Source: Candidatus Methanoperedens sp.
GTDB taxonomy: Archaea; Halobacteriota; Methanosarcinia; Methanosarcinales; Methanoperedenaceae
Reading direction: 5' to 3'
Length of the DNA: 64,000 nt
Assembly: GCA_023249105.1 (NCBI GenBank)
Contig: JAHFDG010000016.1
Coordinates: 1 to 64,000 of the forward strand
Position numbers and translations under genes: made by a program. This document shows, piece by piece, positions 18,200 to 24,098 of this stretch. Below the pieces are notes generated by a model. It worked only from the letters and a program-made list of their open reading frames with translations. It was not told the origin of the DNA and did no database searches. The first letter of the stretch is position 1. Each line of letters begins with the position of its first letter.

Positions 18200-18449
18200 C
18201 GATTTTAAAGAAAGTGAATAAATTATAAGGTTTCAAAGGTTTTGCAATATTTCAAAACTCTTGGAACCAGGTTTAAATTTTCCCTGGGAATCCAAGAAAC
18301 CGAAACCATAAACAATATATTGCTTGAACCAATATTAGCCAAATATTGCGGATGTGGTCCAGAACGGCCAGAGTCACGTATCTTCCGGGCGTGTCCATCT
18401 CGCCTCCGGCTCGATTGGACTAAAGCAATAAAACAAAGAAACAAACCAT
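18200..18449. other. Intergenic region upstream of tRNA-Gly
   Basis: No gene is supported. A tRNA-Gly 5'-like stretch (GCGGATGTGGTCCAG at 18348-18362) is followed by sequence that does not fold as a tRNA, so it may be a decayed copy. Open frames on the minus strand run antisense through the tRNA and are dismissed. Confidence 0.4.
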
Positions 18450-18550
18450 GCGGCTGTGGTCCAGCGGTTATGACAGGGGCTTCCCAACAGCCTTTTATTA
18501 TGAAAGGTGGGAAATAGCCTCTAACCCGGGTTCGAATCCCGGCAGCCGCA
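18450..18550 (+). tRNA. tRNA-Gly(CCC) with a 29-nt intron
   Basis: Acceptor arms GCGGCTG (18450-18456) and CAGCCGC (18543-18549) pair, and discriminator A follows. The T arm is CCGGG-TTCGAAT-CCCGG. The anticodon stem is GGGGC/GCCTC (18476-18480 and 18517-18521), with loop TTCCCA before and A after the intron. The intron runs about 18487-18515 at the canonical position 37/38. TTCCCA pairs with TGGGAA and CCTTT with AAAGG, giving the bulge-helix-bulge cut by archaeal splicing endonuclease. The 3' CCA is not encoded. Confidence 0.92.
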
Positions 18551-18666
18551 TAAGATTTTTTGCCTCCCTCGTTGCGCAGGTAAAAAGTGTTAAATAGCAA
18601 ACAGTAGATTAGAGGAATACCCGAAATCTTATTCTAAATGATGGATACAGCCATCATTCAAGATAT

Positions 18667-18752
18667 GACGAGATAGCCAAGCCCGGTATGGCGCAGGGTT
18701 GCTAACCCTGTGTTCCGCAAGGAGCTCGGGGGTTCAAGTCCCCCTCTCGTCG
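18667..18752 (+). tRNA. tRNA-Ser(GCT)
   Basis: Acceptor arms GACGAGA and TCTCGTC pair, with discriminator G. The anticodon arm is CAGGG-TTGCTAA-CCCTG with anticodon GCT. A long class II variable arm (TGTTCCGCAAGGAGC) and T arm GGGGG-TTCAAGT-CCCCC follow. Two more copies of its 3' end lie at 19347-19402 and 20085-20107, marking it as an integration target. Confidence 0.94.
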
Positions 18753-18784
18753 TTTGTTTTTCTCACTTTTTCGGTTAGTAAACA

Positions 18785-19249
18785 TTATTTTACTTTAAGT
18801 GCAGCCCAAATTACAGTAGTTAAGAATCCGAGATAAACAACAACCACGAGAAAATATGAAAGTAATGCCATGGAAAATGATGAAATGTTTTTGACCATGC
18901 TAATAGCCAGGATGCTTGATGGGATTGCAGAGAATGAAACTGCTACAAAAAACGATATTATATTTATGATTTTTTTTGTATTTTCATTTAATTCTTTTTG
19001 AATAAGAATATAATACATAATTGAAAATAAAGCAAAAAATATGAAAATCATTGTTACGGCGGTATCTTTTAAACCAATATATTTGCTGTACAAAGCTTCC
19101 GGGGTTTTAAAGGCAACTATTAAAGAACCGACTATTAACAGGATTTCAATTAATTTTGTTTTTTGGCTAATCTCATGTAAATAAAAAACATCTGATAATT
19201 TAGTATGAGTTACTTTTAACTTATTTATTTGATGATTCATTCCAGACAC
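18785..19249 (-). CDS. Four-helix membrane protein of unknown function
   Basis: A 154-aa protein with a soluble N-terminus and four predicted membrane helices (about residues 33-50, 62-82, 90-115, 124-150). No family is recognised. The start is GTG at 19249 or ATG at 19240; a TATA-like TTTATAATATAAG about 20 nt upstream suggests a leaderless transcript. It is the only gene between tRNA-Ser and the first extra tRNA-Ser fragment, so it looks like cargo of a small integrated cassette. Confidence 0.65.
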   Translation of the reverse strand: MSGMNHQINKLKVTHTKLSDVFYLHEISQKTKLIEILLIVGSLIVAFKTPEALYSKYIGLKDTAVTMIFIFFALFSIMYYILIQKELNENTKKIINIISFFVAVSFSAIPSSILAISMVKNISSFSMALLSYFLVVVVYLGFLTTVIWAALKVK

Positions 19250-19346
19250 AATTCTAAATTTATTCTTATATTATAAATCAGTTGTTGTGTTCAGAAACAA
19301 GAAAATCCCAGCAATTATACGCTAAGTTTAAACACGCCAGTCTCCG
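19250..19346. other. Spacer ahead of the tRNA-Ser fragment
   Basis: AT-rich. It holds the TATA-like promoter of the membrane-protein gene at about 19264-19276. Nothing else is seen. Confidence 0.35.
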
Positions 19347-19402
19347 AGTTGCTAACCCTGCGCTCCAACAAGGAATTTGGGGGTTCAAGTCCCCTCTCGT
19401 CG
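19347..19402 (+). pseudogene. tRNA-Ser fragment (anticodon loop to 3' end)
   Basis: From the anticodon loop (GTTGCTAACCCTG) through a diverged variable arm to GGGGGTTCAAGTCCCC-TCTCGTCG it matches tRNA-Ser(GCT) at 18667-18752, with one C missing in the T stem. The 5' half is lost or unrecognisable, so it cannot be a functional tRNA. It most likely is an attachment site left by integration. Confidence 0.75.
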
Positions 19403-19650
19403 CTTGTAATTATTAATATAATGATGTTTCTGATAATATATTCAGCATGCATTACGTCTGCGGATTATGTCCAGTTTCTAAGAGAGTTGAACGCTTATCC
19501 ATTTATTTCGATTCGTCTTTGATTTCACGTATATACATTTGTGCAGCCAAGCAGTATTACGGGAAGGAGTAGATATGCGCACGCTCCGGCTAAACAGATT
19601 CCATAATTTACTGGTTGTATATGTGTGAAACATTATTGTCCAGATGGTAA
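19403..19650. other. Intergenic region in the second cassette
   Basis: About 250 bp between the tRNA-Ser fragment and the 52-aa gene. No gene, tRNA or clear repeat is seen. Confidence 0.35.
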
Positions 19651-19809
19651 TTAATCATAAAAGGCAACTAAAATGAATGTAGCAATCGGGCCAAGTAAGA
19701 TTGAAAGAAGGAACCAATTAAGACCGCTTCTCTTCTTCCCCTGGGCGATTCCAGCATTAATTAATGCAAGTGTACCCCATCCGATGGCGTAATCTTGTGT
19801 TTGGATCAT
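19651..19809 (-). CDS. 52-aa small membrane protein
   Basis: It starts MIQTQDYAIGWGTLALINAG, then AQGKKRSGLNWFLLSILLGP and a second hydrophobic stretch ending VAFYD: two short membrane helices around a basic turn. The frame is open to 19884, but ATG at 19809 with a GGGGAG site upstream is the natural start; the longer version would overlap the zinc-ribbon gene. It lies 17 bp behind that gene, inside the second tRNA-bracketed cassette. Function unknown. Confidence 0.6.
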   Translation of the reverse strand: MIQTQDYAIGWGTLALINAGIAQGKKRSGLNWFLLSILLGPIATFILVAFYD

Positions 19810-19826
19810 AAAATGTTTGCTCCCCC

Positions 19827-20051
19827 CTAGTGAGGTCGGAATTCCTCTCCGATACCATCCACAAAGAGTTCTACACGACCACACTTTGGACAGACATAAA
19901 CATCGAAGTGCTCGCGGTTCACAAATAACTCACCCAGTTCTCCAAGGAAGCCCCATCTGGTTCCCTCATGGAACTTCCGGGTCCCGACATATTCAAGTTC
20001 AGTCTTACAACGATGACAACTCATCGGATTTGATTCTTGATCTACTGCCAT
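19827..20051 (-). CDS. Small zinc-ribbon protein
   Basis: A 74-aa protein with CHRC near the N-terminus and CPKCG near the C-terminus, forming one zinc ribbon. The central KFHEGTRWGFLGELGELFVNRE is typical of a widespread family of nucleotide/zinc-ribbon proteins without known function. The start ATG at 20051 has GGAGAGGG upstream; ATG at codon 10 is an alternative. With the 52-aa protein it forms the cargo between the second and third tRNA-Ser 3' ends. Confidence 0.8.
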   Translation of the reverse strand: MAVDQESNPMSCHRCKTELEYVGTRKFHEGTRWGFLGELGELFVNREHFDVYVCPKCGRVELFVDGIGEEFRPH

Positions 20052-20084
20052 TGTATTTTCCCTCTCCTTATGCCTTTTCAGCAG

Positions 20085-20107
20085 GGGGGTTCGAGCCCCC
20101 CTCTCGT
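20085..20107 (+). repeat. Third tRNA-Ser 3'-end copy (att-like)
   Basis: GGGGGTTCGAGCCCCCCTCTCGT repeats the T arm and acceptor 3' strand of tRNA-Ser(GCT), with A-to-G and T-to-C changes in the loop and stem. No other tRNA part precedes it. It lies 10 bp before the end of the S-layer gene and closes the second cassette. Confidence 0.65.
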
Positions 20108-20117
20108 ACCCTATTAC

Positions 20118-23100
20118 TTATTTTTTCACTTCTTCGATACCTTTCTTTCCAAATTTGCCAAGTAGGTTTCCAAGTATGCCCTTTGCTGTCAATAGATAAA
20201 TCGCTATTATCCCGAAAACAGTTACAATTCCTCCAATCAGATAGTAATTTGTGGGCTCCTTCCTAACTTCCAGTAATCCCTTCTGCCCTATGATTTCAAC
20301 AGTATAATTGCCGACCTGGGCTTCTTTAAATGTGAAGTTGACCGCCTTTATCTCACCGGGAGCCAGGGAAACAGACCTGTTATCCACCACAGTGCTGTTA
20401 ACTACCAGTTCAACCTGTTTTGTATCAGCTTTTGTTCCTGCATTTGTGATATTCGATGTGATAACTGTCTGGACATTTGCGAAAACCACAATCGGTGAAA
20501 TATTGATATCAAGTGCCTTATACTCGGAGAAGGGCATCCTGATGGAAATCTCCCTTACAACGCTTATGTATTTGTCCCTGGAAGCTCCGAGATTATGCGT
20601 CCCGCTAACAGTAAATGAATAATTCAATATCCCTTTGATATCTGTTGCCCCGATGACCGAATTATCCAGCGTAACACTTGCGCCGGCAATAGCTGTCCCG
20701 TTTGACTGGACCTTTATTGATACCGGCATTCCCTGGTCTATGATGGACGGAACCTCGATGGTCAACCTGTTATCCACCCATTCTGAAATCTGTATAGTCT
20801 TGACAGCTTTTTCGTATCCCAGCTTGGTAGCCGTGATATTATGTGTGCCGCTCCTTGTGAGAGTGTAATCAAGTTTGCCTGTGCTGTTGGTTGTCCCAAT
20901 ACTTGTATCATCTAACGTTACCGCAGCGCCATCAGCCGGAGATGAGCCTGCTGTTACTGCAATTGTTATTGTATCCTTTACACTCGGGTTCGAGGGTACG
21001 GAAATTGAAAGCTGGTTTGCTGCTGCGATATCGCCATTTACCATTATGTAGGGATAGAATCTGATATCGCTCGAATCTGCAACATGGAATTTGATATTTC
21101 CCATCACATCGATGATGCTGTTCTGGGTCAAGGTCACAGTAGAAGTACTATTCATCTGTATCCTGTTATCTGAGACTTCAGTCACTTTCATGATTCCATA
21201 CTGGTCATTGGTGGTGACCGCTGTTATGGCTTCAGATATCTGGAATATGCCTTTTATGAATGCTGCGTTAGCTTCTCTTCCAGAGAACACGGTTTCGATA
21301 TGGGCCGCGATTATGGGCAGGTCGCTCACTACCCCTACCCTCTTTGTATAAATGTATGTATTTCCAGCCTGGATAGCGGTAGTATCTACTTCATTACCGT
21401 CTTTTAATAATGAGACAAGTACTATCTTTCCACCTGTAATGTCAACATCCTTGACTTTCAGGACATATCCTTCACTCAATGTGAGTGTGCTTCCCGCATA
21501 TACTGCGCGCTGGGTATTGTCATCCGCCAGCACTTTATGGAGCTGCTTGCTGCTTATAGTGCTTATGCTGGTTGTTGATAAGCCGCCCGTGCTGCCGATG
21601 TATCCTGCAAAATACTTGTTAGCCATGAATCCTATGACTTTGTAAGTCCCGAAAGTCTTGTATTTGAAACTTACAGGCTGCGGCGAAGTCGTATAGACCA
21701 GATCCTTTTCATTAATTGTCCTGCCGCTCCTCGTCAGGGTTAATTTTTCAGAGCCCACGTCTTCATTTATATCATAATAGAAACCTTCGAAATTCAACGG
21801 GTTCCAATCAATTGTTGCCGGGTCTGTAGCCTGCGATATTGTGCCGCGCACTTCATAAGTCCCTGATTTCTTTATTGTGGGGGCGAAGCGCAATACACTG
21901 CTGTTATCGGCAACTATTATCTTCATATCGCCCATAAGGTCGTTAAGAGAGGCTGGAGATAATGAAAGGGCGTTCTTGTTTTTCATCTCTATTCCCGTAT
22001 CCGAAGCGCTTGTTATTTCCATTACGCCGTACTTGTTGCCTGTATTTATCGAGGTAAAGCTTTCAGATATCTGGAATATGCCTTTTAAGAAAGCTGCGTT
22101 TGCTTCACGTCCTGAGAATACCGTATCTATATGGACTGCGATAATCGGAACATCGCTTACCACGCCAACCCTCTTTGAGTATGTGTATGTATTTCCAGCC
22201 TGGATGGCGGTAGTATCTACTTCATTGCCGTCCTTTAACAGTGATAGCAATACTATCTTTCCGCCTGTGATATCCACGTCTTTTATCTTCAGGACATAAC
22301 CCTCGTTTAATGTGAGCGTGCTGCCTGCATATATTGCCCGCTGGGTATTGTCATCCATTAATATCTTGTGGAGCTGCTTGTTGCCAATGGTGCTGACAGG
22401 CGTGCTCGTTATGCCTTTCGAGCCTGCCGTATATGCGGCAAAATATTTCTCTGCCATGAATCCTATGACATTGTATGAGCCCCATAGTTTGTATTTGAAT
22501 GAAACATTGTCCGGCTTTGTGGTGTATATGATTGTATTTTCCTGCAAGTTCCTGTCGTCTTTGCTGTCAAGCTGAATTTTTAACGACTCATTGCCCACGT
22601 TATTATCTACATCGTAATAGAAGGCATAGAAACTCATGGGATTCCAGGTATATGTGAGGTTCATATCTTTGCTTGAATCCCATATCCGGTTGCCGGTCTC
22701 GTATGTGCGGGAGCGGACGGTCCAGTTCCAGTATGTTGAGTTGCTCAGGCCTGTGGTGGTGTTGGTTGCCGTCACGTTTACGTTATGCGAACCTGCCACT
22801 GGAGAAGAATTCGTATAAGTTGATCTGGTGCCGCTTGCAATTGAACCGTTATCGAAAACCAGTACATTATCAACTGTCCATGTAATGTTTGCTGTCTGGT
22901 CTGAATATGCTTTAAAAATACCTTGTTGCACTCCAATTGTTTGGTAATTCAAATCTGTTGGGCTATCTTTAAATATTGCAGGTCTTGGTTGTACGCCCAA
23001 TACAAATGTTGAAAAACTTGTCACATTTCCATACACTTTTGTTGAATCTCTTGATGTAGTTATGTTAGTCCATGAAGTCCCATCATAACGGTATAGGCGC

Positions 23101-24002
23101 AGGTCAGAATCTTGATATCCTAGTGGTGTCAATCCTGTATAAGTTAATCCGATTGTAACGTTCCCTCCAATTCCTGCTGTGGTAGTTACAGTATAAAACT
23201 TTCCACCAACACCCGTAAATAATGAACCACCATTTGGTGAAAAAGTCGTACTGTTTGTAATCGTTGTGGTTCCACTGCTAATAACATTTGAAAAATTTAT
23301 TGTTATATTTGAATCAGTCAATGTTACCTGTCCTGTAGGGGTATTGGAAAGGGTGCTGGATGTGTTGGTGGCACCGGTAGAGTTAACGTTTCCAGTTGTA
23401 TCTACCGAGAATATCGATATATTATGACTTGTGTTGGACAGAAAAGTTGCATTGAATAATTGAATCCCTTTTTGAACATTGCTTGTAAAAATGCTATCTA
23501 TAAAAACGCGCACATAGGAGAAATTGATATCTATAGGATCACTCCAAGTCCAATTAAGATACGTTTGCCCAGCATTTGCACTTAAATTAGTAACAGCGGG
23601 TGGTGATGTATTATCAAAAGTAAAAGTCCTTGTATCTGTTGCGATGTTGAGGTTTTCATTAGTAGCATTCACAGTAAGTGTATAATCACCATCTGCAAGT
23701 GCCGTGGTTAAAACGTAATAAAATGGTGTTCCTGTGCTTGAAGTATTAGCAGGGGGGCCACGAATATTTCCGCTACTGAAACTCCAGCCTACTGACGCAT
23801 TAGTGAAATCAAAAAAAACCCCTGTCAGGTTTTCAGTTGTATCAATAACGTTAGCAGAAAAATTAAACGTCCCATTGATGCGCGTTCCATTCGCCAGAGC
23901 CGTAATACTCACAGTCGGCGCCGCTGCAGCAATATTTATCAAAACAATACTCATCATCAATACTACAAAAGCGATACCTCTAATTGTTCTTTTCATCACC
24001 AT
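20118..24002 (-). CDS. S-layer protein with two tandem Methanosarcina-type domains
   Basis: A 1294-aa secreted protein. Order: signal peptide (about 1-25), Ig-like repeats (25-210), a PGF-pre-PGF-like region (about 210-330), a further Ig-like segment, then two tandem S-layer duplication domains of Methanosarcina type (about 437-714 and 734-997). These share long stretches such as ADDNTQRAVYAGSTLTLSEG and HIETVFSGREANAAF. Two carboxypeptidase-regulatory-like repeats (about 1000-1160), a CARDB-like domain and a C-terminal membrane helix with a Lys-rich tail follow. ATG at 24002 has an AGGGG site; the frame is open from 24026. Many NxS/T sequons suggest N-glycosylation. It probably is a structural or accessory S-layer protein anchored at its C-terminus. 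Confidence 0.9.
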   Translation of the reverse strand: MVMKRTIRGIAFVVLMMSIVLINIAAAAPTVSITALANGTRINGTFNFSANVIDTTENLTGVFFDFTNASVGWSFSSGNIRGPPANTSSTGTPFYYVLTTALADGDYTLTVNATNENLNIATDTRTFTFDNTSPPAVTNLSANAGQTYLNWTWSDPIDINFSYVRVFIDSIFTSNVQKGIQLFNATFLSNTSHNISIFSVDTTGNVNSTGATNTSSTLSNTPTGQVTLTDSNITINFSNVISSGTTTITNSTTFSPNGGSLFTGVGGKFYTVTTTAGIGGNVTIGLTYTGLTPLGYQDSDLRLYRYDGTSWTNITTSRDSTKVYGNVTSFSTFVLGVQPRPAIFKDSPTDLNYQTIGVQQGIFKAYSDQTANITWTVDNVLVFDNGSIASGTRSTYTNSSPVAGSHNVNVTATNTTTGLSNSTYWNWTVRSRTYETGNRIWDSSKDMNLTYTWNPMSFYAFYYDVDNNVGNESLKIQLDSKDDRNLQENTIIYTTKPDNVSFKYKLWGSYNVIGFMAEKYFAAYTAGSKGITSTPVSTIGNKQLHKILMDDNTQRAIYAGSTLTLNEGYVLKIKDVDITGGKIVLLSLLKDGNEVDTTAIQAGNTYTYSKRVGVVSDVPIIAVHIDTVFSGREANAAFLKGIFQISESFTSINTGNKYGVMEITSASDTGIEMKNKNALSLSPASLNDLMGDMKIIVADNSSVLRFAPTIKKSGTYEVRGTISQATDPATIDWNPLNFEGFYYDINEDVGSEKLTLTRSGRTINEKDLVYTTSPQPVSFKYKTFGTYKVIGFMANKYFAGYIGSTGGLSTTSISTISSKQLHKVLADDNTQRAVYAGSTLTLSEGYVLKVKDVDITGGKIVLVSLLKDGNEVDTTAIQAGNTYIYTKRVGVVSDLPIIAAHIETVFSGREANAAFIKGIFQISEAITAVTTNDQYGIMKVTEVSDNRIQMNSTSTVTLTQNSIIDVMGNIKFHVADSSDIRFYPYIMVNGDIAAANQLSISVPSNPSVKDTITIAVTAGSSPADGAAVTLDDTSIGTTNSTGKLDYTLTRSGTHNITATKLGYEKAVKTIQISEWVDNRLTIEVPSIIDQGMPVSIKVQSNGTAIAGASVTLDNSVIGATDIKGILNYSFTVSGTHNLGASRDKYISVVREISIRMPFSEYKALDINISPIVVFANVQTVITSNITNAGTKADTKQVELVVNSTVVDNRSVSLAPGEIKAVNFTFKEAQVGNYTVEIIGQKGLLEVRKEPTNYYLIGGIVTVFGIIAIYLLTAKGILGNLLGKFGKKGIEEVKK

Positions 24003-24098
24003 GTTTTTCCCCTGATCATACCTCAATTTTTTTCATCCTCGACCTGTCAATTATGCTGCAAAAATGCAGTGTAATCGACCGCATGTCATAAGAACTCA

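Follow-up and report, generated by a model that had tools for sequence, protein, structure and literature searches.

Two tandem cassettes behind a Candidatus Methanoperedens tRNA-Ser(GCT) gene are probably the decayed remains of serially integrated, most likely SSV-type, elements

A stretch of 64,000 nucleotides of Candidatus Methanoperedens DNA (the window) carries two stacked cassettes of ~0.7 kb each directly behind a tRNA-Ser(GCT) gene. We conclude, with a probability of about 80%, that these cassettes are the remains of at least two elements, most likely of the SSV type, that were serially integrated at this tRNA gene, and that the gene in the first cassette was kept by selection. In the proposed mechanism, at least two mobile elements would have targeted the 3' half of tRNA-Ser(GCT) by site-specific integration. 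Each event would have rebuilt the tRNA with the 3' half of the element and displaced the previous 3' half, which stayed downstream as a remnant. The elements would most likely have been of the SSV (type I, 'suicidal') kind, in which the integrase gene contains the attachment site. Because integration breaks that gene, an element of this kind would be trapped once it had integrated; trapped elements would then decay by deletion until one or two small genes remained between tRNA scraps. The membrane-protein gene of cassette 1 would be one that selection retained.

The window is part of contig C47 of a 3.28-Mb genome in 134 contigs (G000 in the genus comparison). ARAGORN places tRNA-Ser(GCT) at 18666–18753 on the plus strand; relatives suggest that it was the integration target and now forms the tRNA-proximal attachment site (attL). 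A BLASTN search with this gene against a database of the window and 36 loci returned two further matches in the window at E ≤ 1, both downstream and both in the orientation of the tRNA, in agreement with the preliminary description of two additional copies of the tRNA 3' part. Remnant 1 (19348–19402, plus strand) is a decayed copy of tRNA positions 33–87, which span the anticodon loop through the 3' end (86% identity, E 6e-11), with homologous remnants in G009 and G041, and probably represents a displaced attachment site. Remnant 2 (20085–20107, plus strand) copies tRNA positions 63–85 near the 3' end (91% identity over 23 nt, E 0.002). Direct repeats of the tRNA 3' end therefore flank the inserts, the second repeat being short. 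In a genome-wide search at E ≤ 0.01, remnant 1 was the sole other tRNA-Ser match in the window's genome, and remnant 2 by itself did not reach significance. We accept remnant 2 as real because its outer junction with the adjacent S-layer gene recurs in G009 and G015, where it aligns over 41 nt at 88% identity (E 1.5e-6 and 5e-7).

All genes of the two cassettes lie on the minus strand. Cassette 1, between the tRNA and remnant 1, holds a gene for a predicted membrane protein of 151 amino acids (18788–19240 without the stop codon). Cassette 2, between the two remnants, holds genes for a hydrophobic protein of 51 amino acids (19651–19806) and a zinc-ribbon-like protein of 74 amino acids (19827–20051). 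Beyond remnant 2 lies the convergent S-layer gene (20118–24026, minus strand; PF07752), a chromosomal neighbour. On the other side, just upstream of tRNA-Ser, a tRNA-Gly(CCC) gene with a 29-nt intron (18449–18551) was missed by default ARAGORN and found with the intron option. A 23-nt stretch at 18340–18362 is 83% identical to the start of the tRNA-Gly gene (18442–18464) and is perhaps another tRNA scrap. In 7 of 28 genomes tRNA-Ser is preceded by a conserved gene that the window lacks; its place is taken there by a prismane/CO dehydrogenase-family gene and the tRNA-Gly gene.

To compare the same site across the genus, we examined all 28 of the 31 genomes that gave a tRNA-Ser(GCT) match; in G004 and G019 less than 80 bp of downstream sequence was available. 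The contigs of these two loci (L024 and L031, respectively) end at that point, which may hint at mixed site states in those populations. An S-layer gene lies within 2 kb downstream of the tRNA in six genomes (G000, G001, G009, G022, G041, and G043). G022 presents the empty site, in which the S-layer gene abuts tRNA-Ser directly, ending ~10 bp or less from it. G043 was considered as a second empty site and rejected: an S-layer-like gene lies near tRNA-Ser, but another gene stands between them. In G009 and G041 the tRNA is followed by the cassette-1 gene, a single remnant, and the S-layer gene, and cassette 2 is absent. G001 has, behind the tRNA, an integrase C-terminal scar, a VapBC pair (PF02697 and PF01850), and a tRNA scrap of 17 nt, after which come the cassette-1 gene and the S-layer gene. 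As G009, G041, and G001 are all without cassette 2, its acquisition in the lineage of the window is more parsimonious than several separate losses, and we infer that it was gained there and not lost in the others. Further tRNA copies within 6 kb occur in six of the 28 genomes (two copies in G000; also G001, G003, G009, G041, and G046). Across the genomes, one site is thus found empty, with one cassette, with two, and stacked with integrase scars, which together make a natural series.

The site in G015 is divided between contigs, with tRNA-Ser on C8 and the outer junction on C20. We considered a large intact element between the tRNA and the S-layer scar and rejected it upon inspection of the flanking genes by eye; the genes beside both look chromosomal, which makes a rearrangement likelier.

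Fragments of one tyrosine integrase family are located behind tRNA-Ser(GCT) in 6 of the 28 genomes (G001, G002, G003, G013, G020, and G046), and the other 22 yielded no integrase fragment there at the search thresholds used. Since Pfam models gave nothing useful on such short scars, we relied on a profile of integrases, trained solely on those at other tRNAs; at tRNA-Ser(GCT) it scored E 8e-13 in G002, 5e-15 in G013, and 2e-13 in G020. In a control set of 560 random 2-kb segments, 13 reached at least 8 bits, and nine of these, all above 21 bits, fall in loci with family members, so that the control contains true members. The second tRNA copy in G046 and in G003 is itself followed by an integrase scar, so that a newer insertion stands between the tRNA and an older one. 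N-terminal scars seen by eye in G004, G005, G008, G015, and G019 had unconvincing profile scores and were excluded from the count; an int(N)-like peptide left of the G041 remnant was too short to be included. At a different gene, in contig C65 of G005 (L160:6839–8857), ARAGORN pairs two halves of tRNA-Ser(TGA) across 1.9 kb, and the 3' half is followed by an integrase N-terminal scar.

The cassettes themselves had been described as lacking an integrase, and this is borne out: the window has no fragment of the relatives' family at E ≤ 0.05, its genome has no family member at E ≤ 1e-6, and the four PF00589 matches in that genome all lie outside the window's contig. The G009 and G041 versions of the site likewise yielded no integrase fragment. 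Because no such fragment survives in the window, we can only infer that an SSV-type integrase made its cassettes, and because they have no split integrase gene of their own, we regard them as likely remains and do not file them as SSV-type members. The cassettes might instead have been left by integrations of a tyrosine recombinase of another kind (type II), one that keeps its gene intact upon integration and is unrelated to the SSV-type scars of the sister genomes. Such an origin would be consistent with the scar-free window and with the presence of other PF00589 proteins in every genome of the genus. However, the sole integrase scars seen at this tRNA, in 6 of 28 genomes, belong to the one family that was the target of the search, albeit with other families searched less thoroughly, and in G001 a scar of this family directly precedes the cassette-1 gene. 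A type II origin is thus improbable, though it is the most serious competitor of the SSV-type reading.

Two relatives with an intact integrase and perfect att repeats are located at other tRNA genes. In G012, tRNA-Ser(GGA) contains the start of a 294-aa frame, and tRNA positions 31–87 recur 7.5 kb away as a perfect 57-nt repeat. When the ends are joined, a single integrase frame runs across att, with ~45 residues upstream of att in the circle. An element of 5,265 bp (5.3 kb) on contig C83 of G005 is located at tRNA-Arg(CCG) and has a perfect 46-nt att repeat; in the circle the frame is preceded by TTG, which becomes TAG in the integrated form, with only the putative start codon lost. This element (L186:8219–13529) sits at the 5' half of the tRNA, on its upstream side, unlike that of G012. 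Judged from their sequences, both fit the SSV-type 'suicidal' design, with att located within the integrase gene or at its beginning. A Pfam scan covered the integrases of G012 and of G005 contig C100; the two proteins score 29.0 and 30.3 bits against PF16795 (Phage_integr_3; cutoff 27) and also exceed the PF00589 cutoff. The family, whole or in pieces, is found at Ser, Arg, Lys, Leu, Thr, Gly, and Met tRNA genes: 11 of its 18 loci lie 0–111 bp from a tRNA gene, and for the other seven no tRNA was found in the stretch examined. A search of viral_contigs for free elements with the window's att, using an exact 28-base pattern, matched 0 stretches; among 149 pattern matches in the same collection, alignment identified no integrase relatives, and phage records gave no integrase match. 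The genes of cassettes 1 and 2 were not found inside any intact element.

The gene of cassette 1 is a single open reading frame that starts with ATG at 19240. A four-helix membrane protein had been proposed; hydrophobic stretches and the four helices of the structural model agree with this, the model being of low confidence (mean pLDDT 54). Orthologs are present in 4 of 31 genomes (G000, G009, G041, and G001), all at this site, and two distant homologs are located elsewhere in G041 and G021. The dN/dS ratios of 0.10–0.27 (six pairs, two methods) point to purifying selection, and from these comparisons the gene is most likely a working one. Its dS of 0.24–0.53 (NG86) indicates that it diverges with the species.

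For cassette 2, the preliminary description of a zinc ribbon and a 52-aa membrane protein stands in part: the 74-aa protein contains two CxxC pairs, but its zinc-ribbon matches are below cutoff, and the hydrophobic protein has 51 residues. The zinc-ribbon-like gene occurs in 4 of 31 genomes, one of the matches being partial, and the hydrophobic gene, patchily, in 8 of 31; G009, G015, G044, and G041 have neither. The neighbours of the zinc-ribbon-like gene in G003 and G006 are ordinary chromosomal genes, so that cassette 2 is not clearly the cargo of an element. A membrane or signalling role for the cargo proteins is a guess. Another cassette in the genus carries a 145-aa membrane protein with a COX1 domain (PF00115), the gene for which follows tRNA-Ser in two genomes (G003 and G021) and is located close to tRNA-Met in a third, G020 (loci L159, L023, and L032).

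The chromosomal setting of the zinc-ribbon-like gene in G003 and G006, together with the likely rearrangement at the scar in G015 and the conservation of cassette 1 under selection, would be consistent with a scenario in which no mobile element was involved, the tRNA scraps having arisen by ordinary duplication or homologous recombination at the tRNA, with ordinary chromosomal genes between them. This scenario would not account for the extent of remnant 1, which begins at the anticodon loop and continues to the end of the tRNA like the perfect att of the G012 element, or for the integrase scars at the matching place in relatives, and we consider it very unlikely. Slightly less likely still are satellites that lack an integrase and continue to move with one supplied in trans by another element. 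Short units between tRNA 3' ends with no integrase would suit such satellites, as would the appearance of the COX1-domain cargo at two different tRNA genes. Against them, the attachment copies are decayed (86% identity in one, a mere 23 nt in the other), the cassette-1 orthologs are confined to one site, their divergence follows the species, and the window's genome has no member of the integrase family that could act in trans at the threshold given above.

The cassettes are therefore most likely decayed serial integrations rather than active satellites. The preliminary description had allowed for either tiny satellites or the remains of two integrations at one site; the former is not supported, given the evidence just listed, and the latter is supported by the empty site in G022, the versions in G009 and G041 that have no cassette 2, the integrase fragments of relatives, and the stacking in G003 and G046. 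It had also named conserved, slowly evolving cargo combined with the lack of an empty site as an argument against integration: the cargo is indeed conserved in the case of cassette 1, but an empty site exists.

Allelic variation of the tRNA gene bears on the fate of its 3' half. tRNA-Ser(GCT) has two main 3'-half alleles, X and Y. The gene itself carries allele X in the window, G041, and G009, and the remnants beside it score nearer to the best Y allele than to X (43 vs 38 in the window, 41 vs 38 in G041, and 35 vs 32.5 in G009). Placed on a YrdC tree that covers 22 genomes (the allele being known for 21), the pattern of alleles needs four changes, at least three of which are forced by well-supported branches. 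These sequence comparisons suggest that the tRNA 3' half was replaced by that of an element and that the remnant is the displaced original; as the score margins are small and the tree is of a single gene, we hold this replacement to be likely at most. More tentatively, with the odds slightly against it, tRNA-Ser(GCT) may function as a one-way gene ratchet, in which suicidal elements time and again swap the 3' half for their own, are trapped by the breakage of their integrase gene, decay to one or two genes, and donate some of them, the present half being foreign and remnant 1 the original. If this were true, trapped elements would hand some of their genes to the host for good.

The data further indicate that Methanoperedens has a family of integrases that are associated with tRNA genes and probably suicidal, of which we found no report for this genus in the open-licence literature. 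Genetic tools, which this group is without, might be developed from the intact G012 and G005 elements.

Among known systems, the SSV-type (type I, 'suicidal') archaeal integrase elements described in PMC8371274, which include SSV1, pTN3, and pT26-2, are alike in several respects: the G012 and G005 contig C83 elements carry att within the integrase gene or at its beginning and have a tRNA target, and PF16795 matches above cutoff in the G012 and G005 contig C100 integrases. The same source mentions the pT26-2 integrase in Methanosarcinales. The differences are that the host here is a mesophilic methane-oxidising archaeon and that the window's cassettes have lost any integrase. The pT26-2 plasmid family, as presented in PMC6972569, uses type I integration at tRNA 3' ends, with an att that averages 58 nt in Thermococcales and often includes the anticodon; the elements analysed here share this mode of integration and an att of similar make-up, and the comparison with plasmid records covered the integrase, whose matches there are 23–25% identical. 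According to PMC9897764, integrated elements are marked at their far ends by partial copies of the tRNA, in which traces of subsequent rearrangements can be preserved. The window shows such copies at the far ends of its inserts as well, but the elements of that account span ~9–23 kb, compared with ~0.7 kb for each of the cassettes stacked behind tRNA-Ser(GCT).
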